Assembly: GCF_000526315.1 (NCBI RefSeq)
Contig: NZ_JAFV01000001.1
Location: forward strand, 1,612,001-1,676,000
Direction: 5' to 3'
Source of the DNA: Methylopila sp. 73B
Lineage (GTDB): Bacteria; Pseudomonadota; Alphaproteobacteria; Rhizobiales; Methylopilaceae
DNA: 64,000 bases
Shown: in pieces, positions 15,743 through 52,239 of the stretch
Layout of the letters: every line of letters begins with the position of its first letter
Position numbering within the stretch: position 1 is the stretch's first letter
Translations under genes and position numbers: made by a program
Notes under the pieces: generated by a model
Databases searched by the model: none
The model's input: the letters and a program-made list of their open reading frames with translations, nothing else
Told to the model about the DNA's origin: nothing

Positions 15743-15747
15743 CCCGC

Positions 15748-18136: not shown

Positions 18137-18175
18137 CGGCGCGGGCTCCGGGTGAACGGTCGTGCCGGATCCATA

Positions 18176-18191: not shown

Positions 18192-18248
18192 GCGCGTCGT
18201 CACGCACAAGGGCCTGAGATCCGAACGAACTTGCACCGTCCGTGGATT

Positions 18249-18279
18249 CACGAAATATCGTCAGTCGCGACTTTTCGTG
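18249..18279. promoter_or_regulatory. Inverted repeat, candidate activator or autoregulatory site
   Basis: CACGAAA (18249-18255) and TTTCGTG (18273-18279) form a perfect 7-base inverted repeat across a 17-base spacer. It lies between the sigma-54 activator gene and the cyanate promoter, about 60-100 bases upstream of the latter's -24 element. That is a suitable position for an enhancer site. No second copy was found before the other sigma-54 promoter, so the assignment is tentative. Confidence 0.35.
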
Positions 18280-18297
18280 CGAGAAGGACGAGATCTC

Positions 18298-20160
<1,863 letters not shown>

Positions 20161-36148: not shown

Positions 36149-36303
36149 TCATGATCGGGCGACAAACCTGTCATCCCGGTCCCGGCCGCGAAACCCTCGG
36201 GCGGCCGCTCTCACGGCATTGCGAAGGGCTTTTGCTGCGACGCAGCGTCGCGAAACCGAACGCGTCGGCGCGCGTTCAGCAATCGTGACAAAAAGAGGGC
36301 GAT

Positions 36304-37455: not shown

Positions 37456-37539
37456 GCGAAGACGGAACGGAACGCCGAAGGCGCGGGTTCTTCAAGGTAG
37501 GGCGCGAAAGACGCCCCCTTTAGAACCCGGGAGACCCTC

Positions 37540-38052
37540 ATGCGCACCAGCGCCCTTCTCGCCGCGGCCTTGCTTGCAAGCTCGACCGCGGCCGGAAACG
37601 CCGCCCCGCCGAAGGTGGCGGCCTTCGACTTTGAACTCTACGACACCAGCACCGAGGGCGATCTCAACGGCCCACGCGCCGACGAGGCCCAGCGCATCGC
37701 CGAGGTGACCGAGCAGATTCGCGACTTCCTGAAGTCCCAGAAGCTCGATCTGGTGGACACCGCGCCCGCCAAGGCCCAGGTCGACGCGCAGGTGTTGCGC
37801 ACCTGCGGCGACTGCCCGGCGGAGATCGCCAAGTCGCTCGGCGCCGACTACGCGCTGATGGGCTACGTCCAGAAGGTCTCGAACCTCATCCTGAACATCA
37901 ACGTCGAGATCCGCGACGCGAAGACCGGCGAGGTCGTGCGCAAGGGCAGTGTCGACATCCGTGGCAACAACCACGAGTCGTGGCGTCACGGCGCCAGCTA
38001 CCTCATGCGCAACCAGATCTTCAAGACGCCGCTGGCGCCCGCGGCGGGTTAG
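37540..38052 (+). CDS. Exported DUF2380/DUF3280-type protein
   Basis: 170 residues with a signal peptide (LLAAALLASSTAAGNA) and a domain starting KVAAFDFELYDTSTEGDLNG. A CGDCPAEIAKSLGADYALMG segment could form a disulfide in the periplasm. The family is found in methylotrophs and rhizobia near quinoprotein genes, without a proven function. It resembles CsgG/LpoB-like lipoprotein folds in its AAFDFEL and GADYALMGYVQKVSN segments. Convergent with the dehydrogenase, 22 bases apart. Confidence 0.75.
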   Translation: MRTSALLAAALLASSTAAGNAAPPKVAAFDFELYDTSTEGDLNGPRADEAQRIAEVTEQIRDFLKSQKLDLVDTAPAKAQVDAQVLRTCGDCPAEIAKSLGADYALMGYVQKVSNLILNINVEIRDAKTGEVVRKGSVDIRGNNHESWRHGASYLMRNQIFKTPLAPAAG

Positions 38053-38074
38053 CCGCCGGCCGCTCCGTCGGCCC

Positions 38075-39571
38075 TCACTTCATGGTCGGGATCGAGAATT
38101 CCGCGCCCGCCTTGACGCCGCTCGGCCAGCGCGAGGTGACGGTCTTGGTCTTGGTGTAGAACCGGAACGCGTCCGGGCCATGCTGGTTCAGGTCGCCCAT
38201 TCCCGAGCGCTTCCAGCCGCCGAAGGTGTGGTAGGCGATCGGCACCGGGATCGGCACGTTGACGCCGACCATGCCGACTTCGACCCGCGCTGCGAAGTCC
38301 CGCGCGGCGTCGCCGTCACGGGTGAAGATCGCGACGCCGTTGCCGTAGGAATGCGTCGTCGGTAGCGCCAGCGCCTGTTCGTAGTCCTTGGCGCGGACCA
38401 CCGAGAGCACCGGGCCGAAGATCTCCTCCTTGTAGATCGTCATCTCGGGCGTCACGCGGTCGAACAGGCAGCCGCCGAGATAAAACCCGTTCTCGTAGCC
38501 CTGCAGCTTGAAGCCGCGGCCGTCGACGGCGAGCTCTGCGCCTTCCGAAACGCCGGTCTCGACGTAACGCGTCACGCGCTCCACCGCCTCGCGGGTGACG
38601 AGCGGGCCGTAATCGGCCGAGCCGTCCGTCGAGGGCCCGATTTTCAGCGACTCCACCCGCGGAACCAGCCGCTCCATCAGCGCGTCGGCGGTCTTCTCGC
38701 CCACCGGCACCGCGACCGAGATCGCCATGCAGCGCTCGCCGGCCGAGCCGTAGCCGGCGCCGATCAGCGCGTCGACCGCCTGGTCGAGGTCGGCGTCCGG
38801 CATGACGATCATGTGGTTCTTGGCGCCGCCGAAGCACTGGGCGCGCTTCCCCGTCTGCGCCGCGCGGACGTAGATGTACTCCGCGATCGCCGAGGAGCCG
38901 ACGAAGCCGACCGCCTTGATGTCCTGGTCCTCCAGGATGGCGTCGACCGCCGTCTTGTCGCCGTTGACGACGTTCAGCACGCCGGCCGGCAACCCGGCCT
39001 CGAGGAACAGCTCCGCGATCCGCATGGGCACGGAGGGGTCGCGCTCGGAGGGCTTCAGGATGAAGGCGTTGCCGCAGGCGAGGGCCGGGGCCGCCTTCCA
39101 CAGTGGGATCATCGCCGGGAAGTTGAACGGCGTGATGCCGGCGACCACGCCCAGGGGCTGCCGCATGGAGTAGACGTCGATGCCCGTACCGGCGCTGTCG
39201 GTGTACTCGCCCTTGAGCAGGTGCGGCGCGCCGATCGCGAACTCCACCACCTCGAGGCCGCGCTGGATGTCGCCCTTGGCGTCCGGCACCGTCTTGCCAT
39301 GCTCGCTCGCGAGCAGCTCGGCCAGAGCGTCGTACTCGTCGCGCACGAGCTCCAGGAACCGCATCATGACCCGCGCGCGCTTCTGCGGGTTCTGGGCCGC
39401 CCAGCCGCGCTGGGCCTCCTTGGCGTTCTCGACCGCGGCGCGCATCTCGGCGGCGCTCGCCAGCGCCACCTGGGCCTGCACGTCGCCGGTGCTCGGATGA
39501 AAGACGTCGGCGAAGCGCCCGCTGGTCCCCTCGACGCGACGGCCCCCGATGAAATGACCGATCTGACGCAT
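38075..39571 (-). CDS. mmsA: CoA-acylating methylmalonate-semialdehyde dehydrogenase
   Basis: Oxidises methylmalonate or malonate semialdehyde to propionyl-CoA or acetyl-CoA in valine, myo-inositol and beta-alanine breakdown. The 498 residues match the family. The NAD-binding region GVVAGITPFNFPAMIPLW, the PFVGSS-type segment VGFVGSSAIAEYIY and the active-site GERCMAISVAV (Cys near 280) are present. The C-terminal FGGWKRSGMGDLNQHGPDAF is typical of MmsA. It shares an upstream region with the DUF971 gene, transcribed the other way. Confidence 0.95.
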   Translation of the reverse strand: MRQIGHFIGGRRVEGTSGRFADVFHPSTGDVQAQVALASAAEMRAAVENAKEAQRGWAAQNPQKRARVMMRFLELVRDEYDALAELLASEHGKTVPDAKGDIQRGLEVVEFAIGAPHLLKGEYTDSAGTGIDVYSMRQPLGVVAGITPFNFPAMIPLWKAAPALACGNAFILKPSERDPSVPMRIAELFLEAGLPAGVLNVVNGDKTAVDAILEDQDIKAVGFVGSSAIAEYIYVRAAQTGKRAQCFGGAKNHMIVMPDADLDQAVDALIGAGYGSAGERCMAISVAVPVGEKTADALMERLVPRVESLKIGPSTDGSADYGPLVTREAVERVTRYVETGVSEGAELAVDGRGFKLQGYENGFYLGGCLFDRVTPEMTIYKEEIFGPVLSVVRAKDYEQALALPTTHSYGNGVAIFTRDGDAARDFAARVEVGMVGVNVPIPVPIAYHTFGGWKRSGMGDLNQHGPDAFRFYTKTKTVTSRWPSGVKAGAEFSIPTMK

Positions 39572-39812
39572 GCCGTTCTCCCTTGGCGGTTCTTGACGCG
39601 TTGGGACGGACCTTAGCCCGGCCTGTGCGGCGGCTGAACAGCGGTTCTCGACGATCGGCCATGACCGATCACACCACGTGGATGCTTTTAGCGCCCTCTC
39701 CGCCGAAGGCGCGCCTCCGCCAAACGGGCCGATGCGGCAACTAATTGCTGTCGCGCGATAACCCCCTCCTGTCTCCTCACCTCAAGGACATCGCGTTCAG
39801 GAGCGAACCCCC
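39572..39812. promoter_or_regulatory. Divergent promoter region of mmsA and the DUF971/Apr-like operon
   Basis: Holds an inverted repeat GATCGG-CCATGA-CCGATC (39653-39670) and a GGCAACTAAT string (39736-39745) 68 bases before the DUF971 start. Both GGCAACTAAT and the embedded ACGATCGGCCAT (39651-39662) recur before the binding-protein gene at 44453, at 44338-44347 and 44353-44364. The shared strings suggest one regulator for the two halves of the cluster. Confidence 0.4.
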
Positions 39813-40181
39813 ATGGATCACGGCCTCGCCGCGCTGGTCGCGCCGCCGCCCTTCGACCCGGCCGACGCGCCGGAGGCCGTGACCGTCGCGCGCGGCGGGC
39901 TCGACCTCCGGCTGACGTTCCGCGACGGCGCGGAGGCCACGGTCGCCGCCGAGGCGCTGCGCCTGAACTGCCGCTGCGCCTGGTGCACCCGCGCCCGGAT
40001 CGAGGATCGCTTCCCCGCGCGCTTCGAGGCGGTCGCCGTGACCGACGTGAAGCTGATCGGCGGCTACGCCGCGCACCTCAGCTTCTCCGACGGCCACGAC
40101 CGGGGGATCTACCCCTGGACCTACATCCGTCGGCTGGCCGAAGGCGACGCCGCGGCGCCTGCGCCCGCCCGCGCCGCCTGA
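39813..40181 (+). CDS. DUF971 domain protein
   Basis: 122 residues. The DUF971 fold, also the N-terminal domain of gamma-butyrobetaine hydroxylase, is recognised from LRLTFRDGAEATVAAEALRL, the cysteine cluster NCRCAWC and the C-terminal HDRGIYPWTYIRRLAEGD. Stand-alone versions occur near Fe-S assembly and redox genes, and the Cys-x-Cys-x2-Cys cluster may bind zinc or iron. It is the first gene of the Apr-like operon, 36 bases before the flavoprotein, and may help to assemble its cofactors. Confidence 0.85.
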   Translation: MDHGLAALVAPPPFDPADAPEAVTVARGGLDLRLTFRDGAEATVAAEALRLNCRCAWCTRARIEDRFPARFEAVAVTDVKLIGGYAAHLSFSDGHDRGIYPWTYIRRLAEGDAAAPAPARAA

Positions 40182-40217
40182 GACCGCCACGCCCTCACCA
40201 GACAGACGAGACGCCCC

Positions 40218-41957
40218 ATGACCGACATCAAGACCGAGATCATCGAGGCCGACATCCTGGTCATTGGCGGCGGCACCGGCGGCCCGATGGCGGCCATCAA
40301 GGCCAAGGAGGCGAATCCCGGCCTCAAGGTCGTGCTGATGGAGAAGGCCAACGTGAAGCGCTCCGGCGCGATCTCCATGGGCATGGACGGGCTGAACAAC
40401 GCCGTCGTGCCGGGCTACGCCACGCCCGAGCAATACGTGAAGGAGATCACCGTCGCCAACGACGGCATCGTCAATCAGAAGGCGGTGATGGCCTACGCCA
40501 CCGGCTCCTTCCCGATGATCCAGTATCTCGACAAGCTGGGCGTCAAGTTCGAGAAGGACGGCTCCGGCGAATACAACATGCGCAAGGTCCACCACATGGG
40601 GACCTACGTTCTGCCCATGCCGGAAGGTCACAACGTCAAGAAGGTGCTGTACCGGCAGCTTCGCCGCCTGCAGGTGGCGGTGACCAACCGCTACATGGCC
40701 ACACGCCTGCTCAAGAGCCCGGACGGCCGCATCGCCGGCGCGGTCGGCGTCAACACCCGCACCTCCGAGTTCCTGGTGGTGAAGGCCAAGGCCGTGGTGC
40801 TCGCCTGCGGCGCCGCCGGCCGGCTCGGCCTGCCGGCCTCCGGCTACATGTTCGGCACCTACGAGAACGCGGCGAACTGCGGCGACGGCTACGCCATGGC
40901 CTATCATGCCGGCGCCCAGCTCGCGAACCTCGAGTGCTACCAGATCAACCCGCTGATCAAGGACTACAACGGCCCGTCCTGCGCTTACGTCACCGGCCCG
41001 TTCGGCGGTTACACCGCCAACAACAAGGGCGACCGCTTCATCGAGTGCGACTACTGGTCAGGCCAGATGATGCTGGAGTTCTGGCGCGAGCTGCAGAGCG
41101 GAAACGGCCCCGTCTACCTCAAGATGGACCACCTCGCCGAGGAGACCATCTCCGAGATCGAGACCATCCTGCACACCAACGAGCGCCCCTCCCGCGGCCG
41201 CTTCCACGAGAAGCGCGGCAACGACTACCGCAAGCGGCCGGTCGAGATGCACATCTCGGAGATCGGGTTCTGTTCGGGCCACTCGGCCTCGGGCGTGTGG
41301 GTCGACGAGAACGCCCGCACCACGATCCCCGGCCTCTACGCGGTCGGCGACATGGCGAGCGTGCCGCACAACTACATGCTGGGCGCCTTCGTGAACGGCG
41401 GCATCGCCGGCCGTGACGCCGCCGAGTACTGCGCGAACGTCGCCATGGCCGATTTCGACGAGGGCTATCTCGCCGCCGAGCAGGAGCGCGTGATGGCGCC
41501 GACCCGCCGCTCGGACGGGCTCACGCCGAACGAAATGGAGTTCAAGACCCGCCGTCTCGTGAACGACTACCTCGAGCCGCCGAAGGTCACGGCGAAGATG
41601 GAAATCGCGCAGCGCCGCTTCGCGGAGATCCGCGACGACCTGTCGGAGCTCTGCGCCCGCGATCCGCACGAGCTGCTGCGCGCGCTCGAGATGCAGACCA
41701 TCCTCGACTGCGCCGACATGGCCGCCGCCGCCTCGCTCTACCGCACAGAGAGCCGCTGGGGCTTCTACCACCTCCGCGTCGACCATCCCGAGACCAACGA
41801 CGACGAGTGGTTCTGCCACACCGTTCTTTACAAGGACGATGAGGGCCGGGTGGCCCACGCCAAGCGCGAGGTCGACCCCTACGTCGTCGCCGTCGAGGCC
41901 GACGAGATGGCCGCCTACCACCAGCTCCGCGTCAAGACGCCGGCCGCGGCCGAGTAA
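40218..41957 (+). CDS. AprA-like FAD flavoprotein (fumarate reductase / APS reductase alpha superfamily)
   Basis: 579 residues. The N-terminal FAD-binding fold is ADILVIGGGTGGPMAAIKAK, and EKANVKRSGAISMGMDGLNN resembles the EKA-xx-RSGA stretch of adenylylsulfate reductase alpha. HSASGVWVDENARTTIPGLY and GDMASVPHNYMLGAFVNGG form the second FAD contact. The C-terminal domain (RRFAEIRDDLSEL to HREVDPYV-like) matches the family's helical cap. It is shorter than canonical AprA (about 620-660 residues). An AprB-like ferredoxin follows 11 bases later, so the two probably form one enzyme. No sat or dsr genes are nearby, so true dissimilatory APS reduction is not supported; the substrate is unknown. 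Confidence 0.85.
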   Translation: MTDIKTEIIEADILVIGGGTGGPMAAIKAKEANPGLKVVLMEKANVKRSGAISMGMDGLNNAVVPGYATPEQYVKEITVANDGIVNQKAVMAYATGSFPMIQYLDKLGVKFEKDGSGEYNMRKVHHMGTYVLPMPEGHNVKKVLYRQLRRLQVAVTNRYMATRLLKSPDGRIAGAVGVNTRTSEFLVVKAKAVVLACGAAGRLGLPASGYMFGTYENAANCGDGYAMAYHAGAQLANLECYQINPLIKDYNGPSCAYVTGPFGGYTANNKGDRFIECDYWSGQMMLEFWRELQSGNGPVYLKMDHLAEETISEIETILHTNERPSRGRFHEKRGNDYRKRPVEMHISEIGFCSGHSASGVWVDENARTTIPGLYAVGDMASVPHNYMLGAFVNGGIAGRDAAEYCANVAMADFDEGYLAAEQERVMAPTRRSDGLTPNEMEFKTRRLVNDYLEPPKVTAKMEIAQRRFAEIRDDLSELCARDPHELLRALEMQTILDCADMAAAASLYRTESRWGFYHLRVDHPETNDDEWFCHTVLYKDDEGRVAHAKREVDPYVVAVEADEMAAYHQLRVKTPAAAE

Positions 41958-41968
41958 GGACGAGACCC

Positions 41969-42202
41969 ATGCCGATCATCACCCAGGCCAAGAGCGCGGC
42001 GGTCGTCATCGACGACGCGAAGTGCATCGCGGAAAAAGGCTGCACCGTCTGCGTGGACGTGTGCCCGCTCGACATCCTCGCGATCGACGAGGGGCGGAAA
42101 AAGGCGTTCATGAAGTACGACGAGTGCTGGTACTGCATGCCCTGCGAGGCCGACTGCCCCACCGGCGCGGTCAAGGTCAACATCCCCTACCTGCTGCGCT
42201 GA
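41969..42202 (+). CDS. AprB-like 2[4Fe-4S] ferredoxin
   Basis: 77 residues with eight cluster cysteines: C19, C25, C28, C32 (KCIAEKGCTVCVDVCP) and C53, C56, C59, C63 (ECWYCMPCEADCP). The aromatic ECWYC and the CIAEKGCTVC spacing recall the beta subunit of APS reductase rather than a simple bacterial ferredoxin. The protein is much shorter than AprB, lacking its C-terminal tail. It lies directly after the flavoprotein and should pass electrons to or from its FAD. Confidence 0.9.
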   Translation: MPIITQAKSAAVVIDDAKCIAEKGCTVCVDVCPLDILAIDEGRKKAFMKYDECWYCMPCEADCPTGAVKVNIPYLLR

Positions 42203-42215
42203 GGGACCAGAACCC

Positions 42216-43175
42216 ATGCCCGCGTTCGACGCCTTCGACGACGATCTCGACGACCTCCGGGAGCGCTGCTCCGACCCCGACGCCGGCGTGCGGCGGGTCG
42301 CCATGATGGAGCTCGCCGAGCAGGTGGGCCCGGAGGCGACCGTGCTGCTGCTGAAGGGCCTTGGCGACCCCGACGCGCAGGTGCGCGCCGCCGCCGCCAA
42401 GGCGCTCGACGAGCACGACGGCCCCGAGGTCGTCGAAGGCCTCGTCGGCTCGCTGGAGGACCCGGACGACGCGGTGCGCCATGCGGCGGCCGAGACGCTC
42501 GCCGACAAGAAGGAGCCCGCCTGCGGCCCGCTGCTGATCGAGCGGGCGGAGCACTCCGATCCCTTCGTGCAGGCGGCGGCGTTGCGGGCGCTCCGTGAAC
42601 TGACGCTTCCAGACGCGCTGGCCGCGGCGCTGAAGGCGCTCCGCAACCCCTCCCCCGACGTCCGCCGAGAGGGTCTTGGCGTCATCGGCTGGCTGAAGGC
42701 CGAGGAGGCAATGCCGGCTCTGATCGCGACCGCCTCCGACTCGGACCCGTCGGTCCGCCGCGCCACCATGTCCGCGCTGGTGTTCGTGCGGCCGGGCGGC
42801 CCCGGCGCGACGACGCTCGTGGCGGGGCTCGCCGATCCACACTGGCAGGTGCGCGAGGAGGCGGCGATCGTCTCCGCGAAGATCCGGCTGCCGGAAGCGA
42901 CGACGGCGCTCATCGGCGCCCTGTCCGACGACGCCTGGCAGGTCCGCGTGAAGGCCGCGAACGCCCTCGGCCGGCTGCGCGCGGAGAGCGCGGTCGAGCC
43001 GCTGGCCAAGGGCCTCGACAGCGAGATCCCGAACCTGCGCAAGGAATCCGCCGCGGCCTTGGGCGAGATCGCCGCTCCCGCCGCGCTACCCTGGCTGGAG
43101 CGCGCGATGGACGATCCCGACCCCGACGTCCGCAAGCTCATCCGCTGGGCGATCGGCCGCTGCCAGGGCGCCTGA
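42216..43175 (+). CDS. HEAT-repeat (PBS-lyase type) protein
   Basis: 319 residues made of about nine consecutive 30-residue HEAT-like repeats. Examples are LRERCSDPDAGVRRVAMMEL, LGDPDAQVRAAAAKALDEHD, LEDPDDAVRHAAAETLADKK and LSDDAWQVRVKAANALGRLR. Such repeats form superhelical protein-binding scaffolds and are also found in phycobilin lyases and cofactor-handling proteins. Placed 13 bases after the ferredoxin and followed by a terminator, it closes the first operon. A chaperone or scaffold role for the flavoprotein-ferredoxin pair is the simplest inference. Confidence 0.9.
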   Translation: MPAFDAFDDDLDDLRERCSDPDAGVRRVAMMELAEQVGPEATVLLLKGLGDPDAQVRAAAAKALDEHDGPEVVEGLVGSLEDPDDAVRHAAAETLADKKEPACGPLLIERAEHSDPFVQAAALRALRELTLPDALAAALKALRNPSPDVRREGLGVIGWLKAEEAMPALIATASDSDPSVRRATMSALVFVRPGGPGATTLVAGLADPHWQVREEAAIVSAKIRLPEATTALIGALSDDAWQVRVKAANALGRLRAESAVEPLAKGLDSEIPNLRKESAAALGEIAAPAALPWLERAMDDPDPDVRKLIRWAIGRCQGA

Positions 43176-43202
43176 TCCCGCTAAGCGACGCTTGAAATGA
43201 AA

Positions 43203-43236
43203 AAGCCGTCGGAGCGCCCCTCCGGCGGCTTCTTCG
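43203..43236 (+). terminator. Rho-independent terminator after the HEAT gene
   Basis: AAGCCGTCGGAG (43203-43214) pairs with CTCCGGCGGCTT (43220-43231) over 12 bases with a 5-base loop, followed by CTTC. It ends the DUF971-AprA-AprB-HEAT transcript and separates it from the regulator gene. Confidence 0.85.
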
Positions 43237-43307
43237 CATCGGCGCGGTCACGAAGCCGCGCCGCGCGCTGCGGCTCATTGGAATCAAAACAATCCTATGC
43301 TCTGCTG

Positions 43308-43326
43308 CGTCGCACCACGTGCGACG
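43308..43326. promoter_or_regulatory. Perfect palindrome before the Crp/Fnr gene, candidate operator
   Basis: CGTCGCAC-CAC-GTGCGACG is a perfect 8-base inverted repeat with a 3-base centre, 14 bases before the ATG at 43341. It could be an autoregulatory operator. It does not resemble the classic FNR box TTGAT-N4-ATCAA. No second copy was found in the cluster. Confidence 0.45.
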
Positions 43327-43340
43327 TCGGGAGATCCGCG

Positions 43341-44126
43341 ATGCAGCAGACCGTCCCTCTGGCCTGGCCTCCCCAGCTCCGCCCGCAGGCCGCCGCGGAG
43401 CCCGCGCGCGCCTCCGCGCTTCTGCTCGCCGACAGCGAGGCTCCCGAGCGCGGCCCCAAGCCGATGCTCAATGGGCTGACGGACCGCGAGACCGCGCTGG
43501 TGATGGAGCGCGCCCGTCGCCGGGTGCTCTACCGCGGCGCTACGCTGTTCACCCAGGAGACCCCGCACGACGGCATCTGGTTGATCGAGACCGGCCGCAT
43601 CCGCGTGTTCTACGCCGCCCCCACGGGTCGCGAGATCACCCTCGCGTACTGGTACCCCGGCAATTTCGTCGGCGGCCCCGAGGTGTTCGGCGCCGGCCAG
43701 CACTGCTGGTCCGGCATGGCCGCCAGCAACAGTTCGGTGCTGCACCTGCCCGGCCGCACGCTGAAGGAGCTTGTCACCCAGATCCCGACGCTCGCCGTCA
43801 ACGTGATCGAGGGCGTCGCGTTCAAGGGCAAGTGCTACTCGGCGCTGGCGCAGATGCTCGGCACCCGCTCGATCACCGAGCGGCTGTCGCACCTCCTGCT
43901 CCACCTCGCCGACCTCTACGGCGTCGAGGAGGAGGACGGCGGGGTCGCGATCGCGGCCGCCTTCACCCATGCCGACCTCGCCCACATGGTGGGCGCGACG
44001 CGGCAGTGGATCACGATCAGCCTGAAGCGCATGAGCGCTCAAGGCGTGCTGGAGGTCCGCCGCTCGCAGATCGTGCTGCGCAAACCCGACGTGCTGGCGC
44101 AGATGAAGAGCGGCGGCGACGCCTGA
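43341..44126 (+). CDS. Crp/Fnr-family transcriptional regulator
   Basis: 261 residues from ATG 43341; the open frame runs back to 43197 but its upstream ATG lies inside the terminator. A cyclic-nucleotide-binding fold (DGIWLIETGRIRVFYAAPTG, EITLAYWYPGNFVGG) and a dimerisation helix lead to the helix-turn-helix FTHADLAHMVGATRQWITISLKRM. It has only two cysteines, and they do not form the N-terminal FNR [4Fe-4S] motif, so it is not a classic oxygen-sensing FNR. Placed between the two operons, it is the likely local regulator of the cluster. Confidence 0.92.
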   Translation: MQQTVPLAWPPQLRPQAAAEPARASALLLADSEAPERGPKPMLNGLTDRETALVMERARRRVLYRGATLFTQETPHDGIWLIETGRIRVFYAAPTGREITLAYWYPGNFVGGPEVFGAGQHCWSGMAASNSSVLHLPGRTLKELVTQIPTLAVNVIEGVAFKGKCYSALAQMLGTRSITERLSHLLLHLADLYGVEEEDGGVAIAAAFTHADLAHMVGATRQWITISLKRMSAQGVLEVRRSQIVLRKPDVLAQMKSGGDA

Positions 44127-44452
44127 CCTCTTTGAAGACGGCGGCGACGGAGCGCTGACGACGCCGGGCCGCCGTTTTCGGTTTTGACCGAAGCGACAAA
44201 CGCCACAGCTGCTTTCGGACAACGGGTTCGACGGCCGCGGCGGTCGTTCGGGTCGCGTGCGGCGCGCCCCAAGCCTTGCCCCAACCACGCACGTCCATCC
44301 AGCAGGACGGCGCGTTTTTAGGCGGGCCCGCTTTCTTGGCAACTAATCAACCACGATCGGCCATCTCCGTTTGATCCTCGGCGGGTTCGGACCGGATCAT
44401 CCCTGTGTCGGGACGCCCCGGCGGATGACCCCAGCTTCCAACGAGGTGAGCC
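44127..44452. promoter_or_regulatory. Regulatory intergenic region before the NosL-fused binding-protein gene
   Basis: Contains no gene. A small hairpin TTCGGT-TTTG-ACCGAA (44177-44192) may end the regulator transcript. GGCAACTAAT (44338-44347) and ACGATCGGCCAT (44353-44364) repeat strings found before the DUF971 operon. The intervening CCGTTTGATCCTC region probably holds the promoter of the transporter operon. Confidence 0.45.
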
Positions 44453-45877
44453 ATGGCCTTCCCGACCTTCTCCCGCACGGCGGCCTCGCTCGCCGCGCTG
44501 ATCGCGGCGGGCGCCAGCCTCGCCGCGCCCGCCTCCGCCGAAACGCTGATCGTCGGCATCGGCACGCAGGACACCACGACCAACACCGTCACCACCGGCG
44601 TGGTGCTCCGCGAGCTCAAGCTGATCGAGAAGCACCTGCCGAAGGACGGCAAGTACGCCGGCCTCGACATCAAGCTCGACTGGCAGAACTTCACCTCCGG
44701 ACCGCCGGTGACCAACGGCATGATGGCCGGGAAGCTGCAGTTCGGCGCCATGGGCGACTATCCGCTCGTCGTGAACGGCTACACCTTCCAGTCCAATCCC
44801 GAGAGCAAGACCCAGCTCATCTCGGTCGCGGCCTACAACCTCGACGGCTCCGGCAACGGCGTCGTGGTGCACGAGGACTCGCCCTACTTCGCGCTCGCGG
44901 ACCTCAAGGGGAAGGTCGTCAGCGTCCCCTTCGGCTCCGCCGCCCACGGCATGCTGCTGAAGGCGATGCAGGACGCCAAGATGCCGAAGGACTTCTTCAC
45001 GCTGGTGAGCCAAAGCCCCGAGGTCGGCTCCACCAACCTGAAGGAGCAGAAGATCGACGCCCACGCCGACTTCGTGCCCTTCGCCGAGCTGCTGCCGTTC
45101 CGCGGCTTCGCCCGCAAGGTGTTCGACGGCGTGCAGACCAACCTGCCGACCTGGCACGGCGTGGTCGCGCGCACCGACTTCGCCGAAAAATACCCGGAGA
45201 TCGTCGACGCCTATCTGCAGGCGGTGCTCGACGCCAACGAGTGGGTGAAGAGCGACCCGAAGCGCGCCGCCGAAAAGATCTCGGAGTGGACCGGGACCGA
45301 CAAGGAGGTCGTCTACATCTTCCTCGGCCCCGGCGGCATCATGACGCTCGACCCCACGCTCAAGGCGCCGCTGATCGCGGCCGCCAAGGAGGACGTGAAG
45401 GTCCTGCAGAGCCTCGACCGCATCAAGACGCCGTTCGACGTCGACCCCTGGGTCAACGACGGCTATCTCCGCGCCGCCTTCAAGGCCCGCGGCCTCGACT
45501 ACAACGCCGCCGTGGCGAGCACCGCGAACTACGAGGTGACCGGCGAAGACGCCTTCTGCAAGAAGCCGATCTCCGAGCCGCGGAAGGCCGGAGAGATCTG
45601 GGTGAAGGACGGCGACATCCTGGCGTTCTCCAGCGCCTCCTGCACGCTCGCGGCCTACCGCGACATGCAGACCAAGGGCACGGCGATGAACGTCGCCTAC
45701 GTGTTCGACGCCGCCCGCGGCATCAAGCTGTTCGCCGACAAGGCGTTCTACGTGATCGATCCGAAGGCGGGCGTCACCCCCTTCATGCTGAAGCAGGACG
45801 CCGAGGCCTTCGCGACGACGTCCGGCGGCAAGGTCGCGCCGTTCGAAGACGCGCTGACCGCCGCGACCGCGGGTTGA
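44453..45877 (+). CDS. NitT/TauT-type ABC substrate-binding protein with C-terminal NosL-like domain
   Basis: 474 residues. A Sec signal peptide (SLAALIAAGASLAAPASA) precedes a SsuA/TauA/NrtA-like domain: ETLIVGIGTQDTTTNTVTTG, FGAMGDYPLVVNGY, SVPFGSAAHGMLLKAM and LPTWHGVVARTDFAEKYPE. From about residue 370 a second domain begins, EIWVKDGDILAFSSASCTLA, then AYVFDAARG, AFYVIDPKAGVTPFM and TTSGGKVAPFEDAL. This pattern matches NosL, the periplasmic copper-binding nitrous-oxide-reductase helper. The CGM copper motif of NosL is replaced by SCTL. The fusion implies a ligand or metal handled together with uptake. Ligand unknown. Confidence 0.85.
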   Translation: MAFPTFSRTAASLAALIAAGASLAAPASAETLIVGIGTQDTTTNTVTTGVVLRELKLIEKHLPKDGKYAGLDIKLDWQNFTSGPPVTNGMMAGKLQFGAMGDYPLVVNGYTFQSNPESKTQLISVAAYNLDGSGNGVVVHEDSPYFALADLKGKVVSVPFGSAAHGMLLKAMQDAKMPKDFFTLVSQSPEVGSTNLKEQKIDAHADFVPFAELLPFRGFARKVFDGVQTNLPTWHGVVARTDFAEKYPEIVDAYLQAVLDANEWVKSDPKRAAEKISEWTGTDKEVVYIFLGPGGIMTLDPTLKAPLIAAAKEDVKVLQSLDRIKTPFDVDPWVNDGYLRAAFKARGLDYNAAVASTANYEVTGEDAFCKKPISEPRKAGEIWVKDGDILAFSSASCTLAAYRDMQTKGTAMNVAYVFDAARGIKLFADKAFYVIDPKAGVTPFMLKQDAEAFATTSGGKVAPFEDALTAATAG

Positions 45878-45882
45878 GGCGC

Positions 45883-46773
45883 ATGCAGACCGCCGCCCTC
45901 TCATCGTCCCGCGAGACGCCTCCCCCGGCGGCGCGCGAGACGGCCCGTCCGGCCGCGGCCCCCACGGCGCCACGGCCGGCCCCCCTTCTGCGCATGGTCC
46001 GCCGGCACCGCGGCGAAATCCGCGCCGTCCTGGTCGGCGCGCTCTCGGTCGCGGCCTTCGTGCTGGCCTGGCACCTGCTCACCACCTACCGGGTGAACCT
46101 CTACGTCCGCTTCATGAACGTGCCGTCCCCCGCCGACGTGCTGGAGAGCGCGCGGACCGCCTTCGCGACGTCGACCTTCTTCCAGCACGTCGCCATCAGC
46201 TGCCGGCGCATCCTCTATGGCTTCCTGCTCGCAGCGGCCGTCGCCGTGCCGCTCGGCCTGCTGATGGGGCGCTTCAAGCTGCTCAGCGAGATCGTGTTCC
46301 CGGTCACCGAGGTGCTGCGGCCGATCCCCGCCATCGCCTGGGTGCCGATGGCGATCATGCTGTGGCCGACCAACGAGCAGTCGATCGTGTTCATCACCTT
46401 CCTGGGCTCGTTCTTCCCCATCCTGCTCAACACCCTGCACGGCATGGCGACCGTCGATCCCGTGCTGGTGCGCGCCGCCCGCTGCCTCGGCGCGACCGAG
46501 GCCGCGACCTTCCGTGAGGTCTACCTGCCGGCGACCCTGCCGCAGATCTTCACCGGGCTCACCGTCGGCATGGGCGTCGCCTGGGTGTCGCTGATCGCGG
46601 CGGAGATGATCTCCGGCCAGTTCGGCATCGGCTATTTCACGTGGGAGGCCTACAGTCTGGTCCAATACTCCGACATCGCGCTCGGCATGCTGGCGATCGG
46701 CGTGCTCGGCCTCGCCTCGAGCTGGGCGATCCGGCTGGTCGGCCGGCTCCTGATGCCATGGAGCGCACGATGA
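45883..46773 (+). CDS. NitT/TauT-type ABC transporter permease
   Basis: 296 residues from ATG 45883, five bases after the binding protein. The Pro/Ala-rich cytoplasmic N-terminus is followed by about six membrane helices. Family motifs are VPSPADVLESARTAF, LRPIPAIAWVPMAIMLW, the EAA loop AARCLGATEAATFREVYLPA and GMGVAWVSLIAAEMISGQFG. The last resembles SsuC/TauC. It overlaps the ATPase start by ATGA, so the three importer subunits are coupled. Confidence 0.92.
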   Translation: MQTAALSSSRETPPPAARETARPAAAPTAPRPAPLLRMVRRHRGEIRAVLVGALSVAAFVLAWHLLTTYRVNLYVRFMNVPSPADVLESARTAFATSTFFQHVAISCRRILYGFLLAAAVAVPLGLLMGRFKLLSEIVFPVTEVLRPIPAIAWVPMAIMLWPTNEQSIVFITFLGSFFPILLNTLHGMATVDPVLVRAARCLGATEAATFREVYLPATLPQIFTGLTVGMGVAWVSLIAAEMISGQFGIGYFTWEAYSLVQYSDIALGMLAIGVLGLASSWAIRLVGRLLMPWSAR

Positions 46774-47678
46774 CCGCCGCGGCTCAACTGCTCGACTCGG
46801 GTCCGACGCCCTACGCGCCGCCCAAGACCACCAAGGGACGCGTGGAGGTCCGCGGCTTCGGCCTGACCTACGACACCGCCGACGGCGCGACCGACGCCGT
46901 CTCCAGCGTCGATCTGACGGTGGAGCCCGGCGAGTTCGTCTCGATCATCGGCCCTTCCGGCTGCGGCAAGTCCACGCTGCTGAACGCGCTCGCCGGGTTC
47001 CTGAAGCCCACGCGCGGGATCGTCACGGTCGACGGCGAGCCGATCACCGGCCCCAGCGCCGACCGCGGCATGATCTTCCAGCAGTACTCGCTGTTCCCCT
47101 GGAAGACCGTGCGGGAGAACGTCGAGTTCGGGCTGAAGATGAAGGGCATGGGCCGGTCCGAGCGGGCCCGTGCGGCGCGCACGCTGCTGGGGCTCGCAGG
47201 GCTCACCCCGTTCGAGAACCACTACCCCGACCGCCTGTCCGGCGGCATGAAACAGCGCGTCGGCATCGTCCGCGCGCTCGCCACCGGCCCACGCATCCTG
47301 CTGCTCGACGAACCCTTCGGCGCGCTCGACGCCCAGACGCGGCTGATCATGCAGCAGATCCTCACCAACATGTGGCAGCGGCTGAAGATCTCGGTGCTGT
47401 TCGTGACCCACGACCTCGACGAGGCGATTTTCCTGTCGGACCGCATCTATGTGATGACCGCGCGGCCGGGCGAGATCAAAGCCGAGATCGCGGTTCCGCT
47501 GCCCCGACCGCGCCTGCCGGCGATGACCATGTCCTCCGAATTTCTGGCGCTCCGCCGCGGCCTGATGTCGCTCATCCGCGAGGAGAGCCTGAAGGCCATG
47601 GGCGGCGAACTTACGGCCGACGGCCTGCAGGGCCTCGCGATCAACCTCGAGGGCCAGGACGTGTTCCGCGCGCTGTGA
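46770..47678 (+). CDS. NitT/TauT-type ABC transporter ATP-binding protein
   Basis: 302 residues from ATG 46770, overlapping the permease stop; ATG 46758 is a possible earlier start. Walker [11 protein letters not shown]-loop [14 protein letters not shown], signature [10 protein letters not shown], Walker [12 protein letters not shown] and H-loop VTHD are all intact. The LFPWKTV form is typical of SsuB/TauB/NrtD ATPases. Completes the importer; the ferredoxin gene follows 43 bases later on the same strand. Confidence 0.93.
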
Positions 47679-47721
47679 GCGGAACCGATCTGCATTCTTC
47701 GCCATTGGAAAGCGATGCGCG

Positions 47722-48060
47722 ATGACGTATGTCGTCACCGAAAATTGCATTCGGTGTAAGTATATGGATTGTGTGGAGGTCTGTCCGGTGGACTGCTTCT
47801 ACATGGGCGAGACCATGCTGGTGATCGCGCCCGACGAATGCATCGACTGCGGCGTGTGCGAACCCGAGTGCCCGGCGGAGGCCATCAAGGCCGACACCGA
47901 ACCGAACCTGCAGGGCTGGATCGCGCTCAACGCGAAATACGCGGCCGTCTGGCCGAACGTGACCGAGAAAGGCGAGCCGCCCGCGGACGCCGCCGTCTGG
48001 GACGGCGCGTCGGGCAAGCTCGAAGCCGTGTTCGGAGCGTCCGATCCGGCGGCGGCGTGA
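47722..48060 (+). CDS. fdxA: 7Fe ferredoxin (FdxA / Azotobacter FdI type)
   Basis: 112 residues. The first cluster motif is [17 protein letters not shown] (C9, C17, C21, C25) and the second [12 protein letters not shown] (C40, C43, C46, C50). This pattern gives one [3Fe-4S] and one [4Fe-4S] centre in Azotobacter FdI. A C-terminal [18 protein letters not shown] extension also matches FdI. FdI is a low-potential carrier and regulator of its reductase in Azotobacter. Here it lies 29 bases before the matching reductase gene and probably feeds the Apr-like enzyme. Confidence 0.93.
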
Positions 48061-48089
48061 CGACGCGAGCTTGAGAGACCGAGAGACCG

Positions 48090-48863
48090 ATGAGCAAGTA
48101 TCTTGAAGAGCGCGTGACCCACGTGAAGCACTGGACGGACACCCTGTTCAGCTTCCGCACCACGCGCGATCCCTCGTTCCGCTTCCGCAACGGCGAGTTC
48201 ACGATGATCGGCATCGAGGTCGAGGGCCGGCCGCTGGTGCGCGCCTATTCGGTGGTCTCGGCGAACTACGACGAGGAGCTCGAGTTCTTCTCGATCAAGG
48301 TTCAGAACGGCCCGCTCACGTCGCGGCTGCAGCACCTCAAGGTCGGCGATCCGATCCTCGTCGGCAAGAAGCCGACCGGCACGCTGGTGCTCGACAACCT
48401 GCTGCCGGGCAAGAATCTCTATCTGCTTGGCACCGGCACCGGCCTCGCGCCGTTCCTGTCGATCATCAAGGACCCCGAGACCTACGAGCGCTTCGAGAAG
48501 GTGGTGCTGGTCCACGGCTGCCGCCAGGTGAGCGAGCTCGCCTATGGCGAGCTGATCACCGAAGGCCTGCCAAAGGACGAGCTGATCGGAGAGCTCGTGA
48601 GCGAGGGTCTGATCTACTATCCGACCGTCACCCGCGAGCCCTTCCGCAACCGCGGCCGCATCACCGACCTGATGGCCTCCGGCAAGCTCTTCGAGGACAT
48701 CGGACTGCCGATGATGTCCAAGGAAAACGACCGCTTCATGCTGTGCGGCAGCCCGGACATGATCCGCGACACCCGTCAGTTGCTCGTCGACGGCGGCTAT
48801 GAAGAGGGCAACCACGGCGAGGCCGGACACTTCGTGATCGAGAAGGCCTTCGTCGAGAAGTGA
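48090..48863 (+). CDS. fpr: Ferredoxin-NADP+ reductase (bacterial Fpr type)
   Basis: 257 residues. FAD-binding RAYSVVSANYDEELEFFSI, NADP-binding GTGTGLAPFLSII and the family C-terminus HFVIEKAFVEK closely follow Azotobacter and Rhodobacter Fpr. It would reduce FdxA with NADPH. It is the last gene of the cluster and is followed by a strong terminator, so it is co-transcribed with the importer and FdxA or only with FdxA. The clustering implies that the cluster's reaction consumes reduced ferredoxin. Confidence 0.95.
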   Translation: MSKYLEERVTHVKHWTDTLFSFRTTRDPSFRFRNGEFTMIGIEVEGRPLVRAYSVVSANYDEELEFFSIKVQNGPLTSRLQHLKVGDPILVGKKPTGTLVLDNLLPGKNLYLLGTGTGLAPFLSIIKDPETYERFEKVVLVHGCRQVSELAYGELITEGLPKDELIGELVSEGLIYYPTVTREPFRNRGRITDLMASGKLFEDIGLPMMSKENDRFMLCGSPDMIRDTRQLLVDGGYEEGNHGEAGHFVIEKAFVEK

Positions 48864-48881
48864 GCCTTGATCTTTGAACGA

Positions 48882-48917
48882 AAAAGGGGCCGCGTGATCG
48901 TTCGCGCGGCCCCTTTT
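48882..48917. terminator. Strong Rho-independent terminator after fpr
   Basis: AAAAGGGGCCGCG (48882-48894) pairs with CGCGGCCCCTTTT (48905-48917) over 13 bases. The A/T-flanked stem works in both directions, serving fpr on the plus strand and the chemoreceptor gene on the minus strand. Confidence 0.92.
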
Positions 48918-48930
48918 CGTTGACGCCTGC

Positions 48931-48960
48931 GATCAGGCGATCAGGCGATCAGGCGATCGA
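48931..48960. repeat. 8-base tandem repeat spanning the chemoreceptor stop codon
   Basis: GATCAGGC occurs three times in tandem (48931-48954), followed by a partial GATCGA. The last two codons and the stop of the minus-strand chemoreceptor gene lie in it. Extra units would only add further TGA codons, so it is not an obvious phase-variation switch. Confidence 0.8.
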
Positions 48961-50436
48961 GCGCGACGCCGCCCGCACCTGCTGCGTCGCGGCGTCGATG
49001 TCGGCGGCCGAGCGCGCGATCGAGTTGAGGCTTTCCGTCACGGTCTCCACCGCCCGCGCCGCCTCGTGCATGTTCGCCGACATGTCCTGCGTCACCGCGG
49101 ACTGCTCCTCCACCGCCGAGGCGATGTTGGTGGACGCGTTGTGGATCTGCTGGATCGTCGCCACCACGAGCCGGATCGCCTCGACGACGCCGGAGGTGGA
49201 GCTTTGGACGGTCGCGACGTTCCGGGAGATCTCGTCGGTGGCCTGGGAGGTCTGGGCGGCCAGGTTCTTCACCTCCGCCGCGACGACCGCGAAGCCGCGT
49301 CCGGCCTCGCCGGCGCGGGCCGCCTCGATCGTCGCGTTGAGCGCGAGAAGGTTGGTCTGGGCCGCGATGTCGCGGATCAACTCGGTCACGGAGCCGATCT
49401 CGGTCGCGGAGCTCGCGAGCCCGCCCGCGGTGTCGGACGCGCGGTTCGCCGCATCCACGGCCTCGACGGTGGTCTTCAGCGCGTAGTCGAGCTGCCGGCT
49501 GATCTCTGACACGGAGGCCGCAAGCTCCTCGGCGCCGGCTGCGACGTTCTGCACATTGGCGGTCGACTGCGTCGCCGCGGCGGCCGCGCTCGACGCTTCG
49601 CCGTTCGTCGCCGTAATGCGGTCGCCGATCTCGTTGAGGTCGCCGTCGATCGCGACCTGAACGGCCGCACGACGCGCCCGCTCGGCGACGTCCTTGGTGA
49701 TGTCCATGGCGAACTTCACCACGCTCAGCGGCCGACCGTCAGAGTCCATCACCGGGTTGTAGGTCGCCTGCAGCCAAACCTCGCGGCCACCCTTGGCGAG
49801 ACGGAGGAACTCGCCCGCCTGGTATTCGCCCCGCGCCAGCGCCTCCCAGAACAGCTTGTAGCTGTGGCTGGACTTGGCTTCCGCGCTCATGAACAGGCTG
49901 TGGTGACGCCCGACAACTTCCTCCAGGCGGTAGCCGGTGGCGGCGAGGAAATTCTCGTTCGCCTCGATGATCGTGCCGTCGAGGTTGAAGCGGATGACCG
50001 CCTGGGACCGCCGGATCGCCGCGATCTGGCCGGCGTCCTCGGCCGCCTTGATCTTCGCTGCCGTGATGTCGGAGGCGTACTTCACCACGCCGAACGGCTT
50101 GCCGTCGCGGCCGATCAGCGGGTTGTAGGAGCCGTTGATCCAGACCTCGCGGCCGCCCTTGGCGATGCGCCGGAACTCGCCGGCGCGAAAGTCGCCTTTG
50201 CCGAGCGCTTCCCAGAAGGCCCTGTATTCCGGCTTGGAGGCCTCGACCGGGTCGACGAACATGCTGTGGTGCTTGCCGCGGACTTCATCGAGTCCGTAGC
50301 CGACCACCGCCAGGAAGTTGGCGTTCGCGGTCTTAATGATCCCATCCAGCCCGAACTCGATCGTGGCCTGAGACCGATCGAGCGCCGCGAGCTTCGCGGA
50401 GGCTGCTGAATCGGATGAAAACGAAAAGAGCGACAT
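48949..50436 (-). CDS. Soluble dual-PAS methyl-accepting chemotaxis protein
   Basis: 495 residues from ATG 50436. Two PAS/PAC domains in tandem (about 18-130, [20 protein letters not shown]; and 140-250, [20 protein letters not shown]) share the motifs [12 protein letters not shown] and [12 protein letters not shown], suggesting a duplication. The C-terminal signalling domain has the hairpin tip [20 protein letters not shown]. There is no membrane segment and no HAMP domain, so it senses an intracellular or redox signal, like Aer2-type receptors. Each PAS has a GKHHSMF or GRHHSLF motif that might contact haem or flavin. Confidence 0.92.
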
Positions 50437-50763
50437 TAATCTGCCCTCGGCCGGCGACAGCGCGTCCCGGCGCGGTTGATCTATGGGGGTAAGATGCGCC
50501 GCGTCGCGTCGTTCAAGGCGCACGACCACGGATTGGAAATGCGAGACGAAAATGAGACGTCGTTTAACGTCGCCGTCACGTGGCGACGGGCCGTCCACCA
50601 GCCTCTCACCCCACCTCGGCGCTCGCCGGTAGAATGCTTGGCGATGATTAACCGTGGGTTGATTTCGGCTGGGTACGTAGTTCCACGCGGGCTTGACCGC
50701 GCAGGCGGTTGACGCGAGGTGTGCGCTCCCCCGCCTCGAGCGTCGTTCCCGGATACGCCCCCT
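50437..50763. other. Intergenic region between chemoreceptor and cobQ
   Basis: No gene and no B12-box or conserved adenosylcobalamin-riboswitch core was found on either strand. Moderately AT-enriched stretches (AAAATGAGACGTCGTTTAAC, GATGATTAACCGTGGGTTG) probably hold the divergent promoters. The in-frame ATG at 50719 is rejected as the cobQ start in favour of 50764. Confidence 0.5.
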
Positions 50764-52239
50764 ATGCGCCGCACCCCCGCCGTGATGCTGCAGGGCACCG
50801 GCTCCAACGTCGGCAAGTCGCTGATCGTGGCTGGGCTCTGCCGCCTGTTCGCCCGGCGAGGCGTTAGGGTCGCGCCGTTCAAGCCGCAGAACATGTCGAA
50901 CAACGCCGCCGTAACCGTCGACGGCGGCGAGATCGGCCGCGCCCAGGCGCTGCAGGCGCGCGCCGCGGGGCTGCGGCCCCTGATCGACATGAACCCCGTC
51001 CTGCTGAAGCCCGAGAGCGAGACCGGCAGCCAGGTGGTGGTGCAGGGCCGGCGGCTTGGAAGCTACCGCGGCAAGGCCTATGGCGCGCTGAAGCCGAGCC
51101 TGATGCCCGCCGTGCTGGAGAGCTACCACCGGCTCGCGGCCCGCGTGGATCTCATGGTGGTCGAAGGCGCCGGCAGCGCCGCGGAAGTGAACCTCCGCGC
51201 CGGGGACATCGCCAACATGGGCTTCGCCGAAGCCGCCGACGTGCCGGTCGTCCTCGTCGGCGACATCGATCGCGGCGGGGTGATCGCGACGCTGGTGGGC
51301 ACGCACGCGCTGTTGCCGCCGGCCGATCTCGCCCGCGTAAAAGGCTTCCTCATCAATCGGTTCCGCGGCGACGTCACCATGTTCGACGAAGGCTTGCGGG
51401 CGATCGCGGACCGCACGGGCTGGGCGTCGCTCGGGATCGCGCCCTGGTTCGCGGACGCCTTGAAGCTGCCGGCCGAGGACTCCGTCGACCTCGCCTCCCG
51501 CACGGGCCGGCGTGAGGGCGCGGTGCGCATCGCCGCCCTCGCGCTGCCGCGGATCGCGAACTTCGACGACCTCGACCCGCTCCGGCTCGACCCGTCCGTC
51601 TCCCTCACCCTGATCGCCGACGGCGCCCCGCTGCCGCCCGAAACCGACCTCGTGCTGCTCCCCGGCTCGAAGGCGACCATCGCCGACCTTGCGGCTCTTC
51701 GGGCCTGGGGTTGGGACGCGGACATTCGCGCCCATGTGCGCCGCGGCGGACGCGTGCTCGGCCTCTGCGGCGGCTACCAAATGCTGGGGCGCACCATCGC
51801 CGATCCCGACGGCGTCGAGGGCGCGCCCGGAATCGTCGCGGGGCTCGGCCTGCTGGCGGTCGACACCGTGCTGGGGGCCGAGAAGCGGCTCGCGCTCGTC
51901 ACGGGCCGGCACGTCGCGAGCGGCGAGGAGGTCGAGGCCTACGAGATTCACATGGGCCGCACCGACGGGCCGGACACGGCCCGCGCCCCGTTCGAGGTGG
52001 CGGGTCGCCCCGAGGGCGCGGTCTCGGCCGACGGCCGGGTTGCGGGCGCCTACCTCCACGGCGTCTTCGCCCGCGACGGTTTCCGCCGCGCCTATCTCCA
52101 AGCGCTCGGGGGGACCGGCGAGGTCTACGGCTACGACGCGACGGTGGACACGACGCTCGACGCGCTCGCCGACCACCTGGAGGCGCACCTCGACGTCGAC
52201 GCGCTGCTCGCAATCGCCCGGCGCGAGAGCTTCAGATGA
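50764..52239 (+). CDS. cobQ: Cobyric acid synthase
   Basis: ATP- and glutamine-dependent amidation of four side chains of adenosylcobyrinic acid a,c-diamide. The 491 residues match the family. An N-terminal P-loop amidoligase domain starts [20 protein letters not shown] and has [13 protein letters not shown]. The C-terminal class I amidotransferase-like domain has the nucleophile Cys in [13 protein letters not shown] and the EIHMGRT motif. ATG 50764 gives the normal N-terminus [15 protein letters not shown]. It overlaps the convergent cobD by eight bases. Confidence 0.96.

Follow-up and report, generated by a model that had tools for sequence, protein, structure and literature searches.

What does the ten-gene locus at positions 39813-48863 of a 64,000-nucleotide stretch of the Methylopila sp. 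73B genome (contig NZ_JAFV01000001.1, positions 1,612,001 to 1,676,000; this whole stretch is hereafter called the window) import, and what does its flavoenzyme do with the imported compound? The original prediction took these genes for an uncharacterised module that couples uptake to a redox conversion of an anion or organosulfur compound, and our analysis supports such a module, with an organosulfur compound as its probable substrate. Reading of open reading frames (ORFs) together with family profile searches places all ten genes on the + strand and confirms the arrangement that had been claimed. We propose that the module imports a sulfonated compound and that its flavoenzyme, a relative of adenosine 5'-phosphosulfate (APS) reductase, would reductively free sulfite from it in the cytoplasm, a proposal on which we would place an even bet. 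As a whole the earlier interpretation is partly supported, and the sulfite-resistance and export genes found in relatives are an addition to it. The genes of the locus are as follows.

39813..40181, + strand: DUF971 (GBBH-like_N) protein, 122 aa; PF06155, 64.9 bits
40218..41957, + strand: AprA-type flavoprotein, 579 aa, candidate catalytic subunit; NCBIfam NF006131/PRK08275, 1067.5 bits vs. cut-off 587
41969..42202, + strand: AprB-like 2[4Fe-4S] ferredoxin subunit, 77 aa; CWxCxxCxxxCP motif, read from the translation
42216..43175, + strand: HEAT-repeat protein, 319 aa; HEAT_2, 208.5 bits
43341..44126 (alternative upstream start 43197 possible), + strand: Crp/Fnr-family regulator, 261 aa; cNMP_binding 51.4 bits, HTH_Crp_2 50.9 bits
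44453..45877, + strand: periplasmic binding protein, 474 aa, with an SsuA/TauA-like domain and a C-terminal NosL-like domain; NMT1; NosL 28.1 bits; TIGR01728 123.6 bits (cut-off 163.5)
45877..46773, + strand: ATP-binding cassette (ABC) importer permease, 298 aa; BPD_transp_1, 89.9 bits
46758..47678 (start 46758 or 46770), + strand: ABC importer ATPase; ABC_tran, 121.2 bits
47722..48060, + strand: ferredoxin FdxA, 112 aa; NF045490 (FdxA_Protbact), 161.6 bits, above the cut-off of 135
48090..48863, + strand: ferredoxin--NADP+ reductase-like protein Fpr, 257 aa; FAD_binding_6 and NAD_binding_1; NF008178, 175.2 bits, under the strict cut-off of 390

The 77-aa ferredoxin is too short for the length limit of the first ORF listing and was taken from a second reading. 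The binding-protein and permease genes overlap by coordinates, the stop codon of the former with the start of the latter.

The arrangement of these genes is conserved far beyond chance. In the 88 loci that we compared, made up of the best 80 of at least 593 confirmed flavoprotein coding stretches in named genomes and 8 plasmid loci, the flavoprotein, the AprB-like ferredoxin and the HEAT protein are found jointly every time (88/88). The other parts are less constant, with DUF971 in 66/88, FdxA in 35/88 and Fpr in 31/88, while a binding protein more than 33% identical to that of the window occurs in 75/88 and lies no more than 9 kb away in 64 of the 72 loci of at least 18 kb. Counts of the ATPase, permease and Crp genes over the 88 loci may take in paralogues from the flanks. 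Gene order differs between lineages, and this reshuffling argues for selection on the gene set. Of 249 evenly sampled genomes of the phylum, 14 have the flavoprotein (E up to 1e-150), and the identical 14 genomes have the NosL-type binding protein (E up to 1e-60; P = 4e-23 if genomes are independent, and all Poisson and Fisher values given here treat related genomes in this way). In genome G131 a distance of 2.9 Mb along the contig separates the two genes. The module is present in several proteobacterial classes, Cyanobacteriota and Actinomycetota, so that the neighbourhood on which the original prediction depended does extend far beyond close relatives.

The flavoprotein is a full member of NF006131. 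Both NF006131/PRK08275 and the Actinomycetota fusion model PRK13800 bear only a generic fumarate reductase/succinate dehydrogenase name, which is also the label that the flavoprotein carries in public plasmid records. In these enzymes the dicarboxylate is bound by a segment around NRLGSNSL that includes an Arg, and a further His lies in the QxHPT motif. While the database name and the fold in common with FrdA and SdhA would make the protein an ordinary fumarate reductase or succinate dehydrogenase flavoprotein, this identity seems highly improbable, since the SdhA, FrdA, TfrA and NadB models give at most 168 bits against cut-offs above 450 (25 of the 55 models are listed), the NRLGSNSL segment present in SdhA and FrdA rows of our alignment is deleted from the module, the QxHPT His is replaced by Asn244, and the module proteins form a separate clade. 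L-aspartate oxidase, NadB, was ruled out on profile scores (TIGR00551, 119 bits vs. a cut-off of 452.75).

The clade was obtained in a tree of 48 proteins, where 26 module rows group together with a Shimodaira-Hasegawa-like approximate likelihood ratio test (SH-aLRT) value of 99, adjoining AprA and 3'-phosphoadenosine 5'-phosphosulfate (PAPS) reductase and separate from six SdhA/FrdA-type rows; the tree comes from a rapid search supported by SH-aLRT values alone and rooted at the midpoint, its long branches are flagged by its own check, and it is without a confirmed NadB row. The nearest solved structures by sequence are the methanogen PAPS reductase (8a8o) and AprA, and the top Foldseek matches of the predicted fold are 8a8o, 1jnr and 2fja, followed by FrdA, in a model whose predicted local distance difference test (pLDDT) value is below 50 at the active-site stretches 45-55, 200-221, 243-254 and 349-354. 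A placement of the flavoprotein within fumarate reductase or L-aspartate oxidase, which would have refuted the original prediction, is thus opposed by profile scores for both and, with respect to SdhA and FrdA, by the tree and the residues as well. The description as AprAB-like holds by descent, while the known APS chemistry that it might suggest is contradicted by the active site.

In AprA, the sulfate group is contacted by Asn74, Trp234, Arg265 and His398, and the nucleotide sits in a channel (PMC2211403). We followed these positions through 95 module rows, which count the gene of the window twice (L003) and are without 12 same-genus loci (L013-L024, the window among them). Asn74 and His398 of AprA correspond to Asn60 and His355 in all 95 rows, and Trp234 corresponds to Tyr215 in all 95, the residue being Trp in 14/14 AprA rows. 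The catalytic Arg265 is kept in 14/14 AprA rows and 2/2 PAPS reductase rows, while its module equivalent is Leu246 in 95/95. These counts are regrouped, with one row (L038) first tabled under succinate dehydrogenase now counted as AprA; five of the 14 AprA rows were tested against the family model TIGR02061 and all five pass. Because the sulfur-contacting Asn and His are kept and the catalytic Arg is lost, the flavoprotein would seem by sequence to be neither an APS reductase nor a fumarate reductase, and it appears to represent a new branch of the APS-reductase flavoenzymes within a generically named family.

The channel for adenosine monophosphate (AMP) is also rebuilt, as Tyr95, Trp144, Gln145, Gly274 and Phe277 of AprA become Glu76, His125, His126, Cys255 and Val258 in the module, with Thr, Ala or Gly at the Leu278 position and Arg in place of His126 in 6 rows. 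Glu76, His125, Tyr215, Gln242, Asn244, Cys255 and Val258 are invariant in 95/95 rows. Could the enzyme nevertheless be an assimilatory APS or PAPS reductase in altered form? The closest solved structure is 8a8o, the AprA-type model NF005331 is the nearest of its kind at 293 bits, and the two-subunit plan and a cluster-adjacent Trp are held in common. PAPS reductase is itself altered at the AMP-channel residues Trp144, Gln145, Phe277, Leu278 and His446, and a rebuilt channel by itself is therefore compatible with a nucleotide; the lost Arg is the stronger argument for a substrate other than APS or PAPS. Since Tyr95 and Gly274, which are kept in PAPS reductase rows, are Glu and Cys in the module, the scores fall far below the cut-offs (AprA model TIGR02061, 157 vs. 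641.75 bits; NF005331, 293 vs. 557 bits) and a PAPS reductase of the CysH type is already present in the host genome, next to a NIR_SIR protein, we consider such a function very hard to credit.

The PAPS reductase of Methanothermococcus thermolithotrophicus (8a8o) is likewise a flavoprotein with a small 2[4Fe-4S] ferredoxin that carries a relay Trp, and its genes co-occur with sulfate activation genes (PMC10322725). It is the nearest solved relative of the module flavoprotein by sequence and fold, at about 26% identity, yet it keeps the catalytic Arg where the module has Leu, the module rows form a clade of their own, and the module is paired with a sulfonate-type importer instead of sulfate activation genes. 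Dissimilatory AprAB (2fja, 1jnr, 3gyx) belongs to the neighbouring clade, and the equivalents of its Asn74, His398 and His446 are kept in the module; it differs in Arg265 and the AMP-channel residues, which the module has lost, and in the length of AprB, 150-166 aa vs. 77 aa for the module ferredoxin.

The importer gives an indication of the substrate class. The model of the binding protein (pLDDT 90.8) has as its eight best Foldseek matches chains of four taurine/alkanesulfonate binders (TauA, SsuA), with the nitrate binder NrtA at rank 11 and the bicarbonate binder CmpA at rank 21. Binding-protein fold and importer layout are common to the module and to the SsuABC/TauABC importers, and we propose the same biological task for both; SsuABC and TauABC are associated with the monooxygenases SsuD or TauD, whereas the module has a NosL-like C-terminal domain and a ferredoxin-fed redox flavoenzyme. 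The permease scores about 145 bits each with the SaoP and nitrate models and 125 with the taurine model, and the ATPase scores 254 (SaoA), 242 (taurine) and 231 bits (nitrate), all of these being below cut-offs.

The C-terminal NosL match that led to the description of a NosL-fused importer is present (PF05573, 28.1 bits, over the cut-off of 24), and the domain is only NosL-like, the likeness being weak: one cyanobacterial binding protein scores 24.1 bits and the Tsukamurella binding protein has no match. CxxCGM is the copper motif of NosL, and it is found in 0/35 binding proteins. Copper import via this domain as the main role was rejected on these grounds, no Cys being invariant.

The product is suggested by genes that accompany the module in relatives. 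YeiH is a membrane protein and the primary driver of sulfite resistance in Salmonella in vitro, its transport function being inferred (PMC12880088); its gene occurs in 19/88 loci, several times as part of the operon. Halomonas, Stutzerimonas and Alloalcanivorax have it with DUF971 or FdxA on one side and Fpr on the other; in Bradyrhizobium it adjoins the importer ATPase, in Pseudanabaena it is also inside the operon, and in Xanthobacter a unit of Crp, binding protein, permease, ATPase, FdxA, Fpr and YeiH is located away from the flavoprotein. Over 44 genomes, chosen from 80 for long contigs and spread after the YeiH-holding loci were known, 52 YeiH matches in about 248 Mb (Pfam model, two pieces of one gene included) correspond to 0.20 expected in the loci, and 13 were observed with the local-family model, in 10 genera. 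In three of the four cyanobacterial plasmid loci both TauE/SafE, a named sulfite exporter, and YeiH stand beside the enzyme. Taken together, the sulfite-resistance and export genes in the operons of relatives point to sulfite as the likely product.

These observations also bear on whether the substrate is instead a sulfur-free anion (nitrate, cyanate, bicarbonate, a thiamine precursor or the like) with the sulfite genes as bystanders. NitT/TauT importers serve many ligands, and the permease and ATPase scores given above would fit such a substrate. We regard it as quite unlikely in view of the sulfonate-binder folds, the excess of YeiH and its position inside operons of Halomonas, Stutzerimonas, Xanthobacter and Pseudanabaena, and the location in Nostoc of MetX and O-acetylhomoserine sulfhydrylase about 4 kb downstream of the HEAT gene.

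The NIR_SIR protein of the host may be taken as a sulfite reductase because of its CysH-type neighbour. SsuD-type matches over the cut-off occur at two places in the host genome, and therefore the module would be an additional route. One SsuD-like match (G000:C1:4064642-4065676) has one internal TAG stop.

The electron partners bear on the direction of the reaction. Both [4Fe-4S] motifs of the AprB-like ferredoxin, and the Trp in the second of them, are present in 88/88 loci; its Protein Data Bank profile matches are headed by polyferredoxins, followed by the AprB and PAPS reductase beta chains 3gyx_B, 8a8o_C and 1jnr_B. Seven loci, including those of Thiobacillus and Acidithiobacillus, have a one-chain protein of about 1190 aa adjoining the enzyme. 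Its one scanned member (L120) shows likeness to both halves of NfnAB, with scores under the model cut-offs. Locus L058 has RnfC-type and RnfB-type proteins by domains, plus a protein read as RnfE, and the beta family of electron transfer flavoprotein (ETF) is found in four loci (one member scanned). Fpr and the NfnAB-like, Rnf-type and ETF partners are unrelated ways of exchanging electrons between NAD(P)H and ferredoxin that swap in for one another, and we read them as probable suppliers of reduced ferredoxin to a reductive enzyme.

Every one of these partners is reversible in principle, and the flavoenzyme might instead dehydrogenate an imported organosulfonate, passing electrons on to NADP+ via the ferredoxins and Fpr, or to the respiratory chain via ETF/Rnf, with another enzyme later releasing sulfite; in principle this would be like taurine dehydrogenase. 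The SCO1 and cytochrome c genes in the cluster of one Thalassococcus locus (described below) would fit as an electron outlet. This oxidative use seems unlikely to us, though less so than the sulfur-free substrate, since no desulfonating enzyme was recognised among the identified recurrent neighbour families (most families are unnamed), no Xsc scores above the cut-off in the genome of the window, the kinship with APS/PAPS reductases and the kept Asn60 suit chemistry at sulfur, and NAD(P)H:ferredoxin reductases of unrelated types occupying the same position suit a need for reduced ferredoxin.

For the reductive release of sulfite, we envisage the following sequence of steps. The SsuA/TauA-like binding protein and its ABC partners would import R-SO3-. 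Electrons from NAD(P)H would reach the AprB-like ferredoxin directly or by way of Fpr and FdxA (relatives having an Rnf-type complex or the one-chain NfnAB-like protein in the place of Fpr), and this ferredoxin would in turn reduce the flavin adenine dinucleotide (FAD) of the AprA-type subunit. The N5 of the reduced flavin would then attack the sulfonate sulfur, as proposed for APS reductase, with Asn60 and His355 holding the oxygens and R held by a pocket unlike that of AprA. Breakdown of the resulting FAD-sulfite adduct would give sulfite, to be assimilated by the host sulfite reductase or exported via YeiH or TauE-type exporters, and the HEAT and DUF971/Mrp proteins would help to build the enzyme. 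The components of the module, how they are linked to one another and to YeiH, the clade and the residues can be read in the sequences. The class of substrate, the reductive direction, the attack by N5 and all accessory roles in this scheme are inferred.

HEAT repeats are fused to the flavoprotein in Tsukamurella, a fusion that is also the subject of model PRK13800, and the HEAT protein is probably a partner or assembly factor of the flavoprotein. In three cyanobacterial loci (one family-tested) an Mrp/NBP35-type iron-sulfur carrier follows HEAT instead of DUF971, and DUF971 and Mrp may act in the loading of Fe-S clusters.

The bond that is cut may be C-S, S-S, S-N or S-O, of which the last three are chemically easier and C-S is the most novel. 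Our tentative, and rather doubtful, further suggestion is that the flavoenzyme reduces sulfonates independently of oxygen and stands for a third branch among flavoenzymes of the APS-reductase type, using reduced ferredoxin to cleave the C-S bond of imported organosulfonates into sulfite and the desulfonated compound.

Several points weigh against the reductive release of sulfite from a sulfonate. The loss of Arg265 to Leu246 means that the AprA mechanism is not transferable unchanged, and since carbanions leave poorly, an N5 attack on a plain alkyl sulfonate is chemically hard. The His355 equivalent is common to 6/6 SdhA/FrdA-type rows and thus carries little sulfur information; Asn60, whose equivalent is present in 2/6 of these rows, and the clade are better signs of sulfur chemistry. 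(Five of these six rows were tested, of which L001 and L039 pass an SdhA or FrdA cut-off, L040 and L042 are below any, and L002 has no family match at the E-value used.) The binding protein falls under the NCBIfam SsuA cut-off (TIGR01728, 123.6 vs. 163.5 bits). YeiH was not seen in 69/88 loci, some of which are short contigs; the locus of the window is among those without it, the sole YeiH of its genome being 1.5 Mb off, and TauE is only mildly enriched in proteobacteria (5 vs. 1.03 expected, P = 0.004). Ferredoxin, Fpr, Rnf and ETF can each run in the oxidative direction too. Seven genomes with the locus lack the binding protein there; two have it elsewhere and five are without it anywhere. 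The latter are all Burkholderiaceae, from Caballeronia (L081, L082) and Paraburkholderia (L104, L109, L117), and they indicate that the enzyme can work without the NosL-type importer. Read by eye, L104 and L109 have MFS-like (major facilitator superfamily) and flavin-monooxygenase-like genes close to the flavoprotein, ferredoxin and HEAT genes.

The window locus includes a Crp/Fnr regulator gene, as claimed, and this is not universal: of the 88 loci, 29 have a Crp-type ORF, 45 a GntR/UTRA-type ORF (a family assignment tested on one member), none both and 14 neither. Beside two cyanobacterial loci (L124, 9403-11439; L125, 9676-11676) there are LysR regulators whose C-terminal domain is homologous to the module binding protein, sharing 30-37% identity with those of the module and 22-26% with two sulfonate-type binding proteins of Nostoc. 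These fusions would represent an apparent cytoplasmic sensor derived from a periplasmic one, and they suggest that the cell also detects the imported ligand in its interior. In the Thalassococcus (Rhodobacteraceae) locus L070, SCO1/SenC and cytochrome c genes lie at 17086-18260 between the importer ATPase and the Crp gene, and a similarly sized gap is seen there in L074 and L083.

The distribution of the module is patchy. The host genome (4.38 Mb) is close to Methylopila and Hansschlegelia, and the top named relative of the flavoprotein among the matches listed is 98% identical. Within the genus of the window 12/13 genomes carry the module, one of them in two pieces, while it was found in 0/48 other relatives compared alongside; six further genomes of the same order carry the flavoprotein in the 249-genome sample. 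In one same-genus genome (G007:C1:1265664-1267380) the flavoprotein appears as two pieces that overlap and lie in different frames, from a broken gene or an assembly error. The flavoprotein, whole or partial, is found in 55 plasmid records, one of which is a Fusobacteriota plasmid with a PAPS-reductase-type relative. On an Ilyobacter plasmid (L129, 7408-10887) a PAPS-reductase-type AprA/AprB pair lies between cysC and cysD and is probably an assimilatory relative of the methanogen PAPS reductase.

Around the locus, the family scan gives an aldehyde dehydrogenase, DUF3280, BrkB and one ORF without a family match upstream, and a PAS chemotaxis receptor and two cobalamin genes downstream. The statement that sat, dsr, qmo and sox genes are absent nearby holds by family search for these seven flanking ORFs only (34430-53203). 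Directly upstream of the aldehyde dehydrogenase lies the gene (37540-38052) for the DUF3280 protein, of unassigned function. Another ABC importer of the NitT/TauT type, with binding protein, permease and ATPase, was read by eye on the minus strand at 14852-18136, and so was a PAS sigma-54-type regulator divergent from it (18277-20160).

Searches of an open-access library aimed at the module gave no paper that we recognised as describing it. In PMC8557817 the name adenylylsulfate reductase is given to CysH and not to the module flavoprotein, and PMC5011921 is unrelated to the module. PMC8305402 reports a sulfonate transporter under NifA control, together with SoxCD, which we could not match to the module.

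Given the name fumarate reductase/succinate dehydrogenase in public plasmid records and at least 593 confirmed coding stretches of relatives, an entire pathway may be concealed behind a misnomer. If sulfite is released reductively from sulfonates, bacteria that hold the module would be able to mine organosulfonates for sulfur without oxygen, and if the bond cleaved is C-S, the enzyme would be a widespread alternative to the SsuD/TauD oxygenases and to the glycyl-radical and thiamine-dependent desulfonating enzymes. Such a route would have a bearing on sulfur cycling in soil, on plant surfaces and in aquatic habitats, and it would show the flavin chemistry of APS reductase turned to a new substrate.

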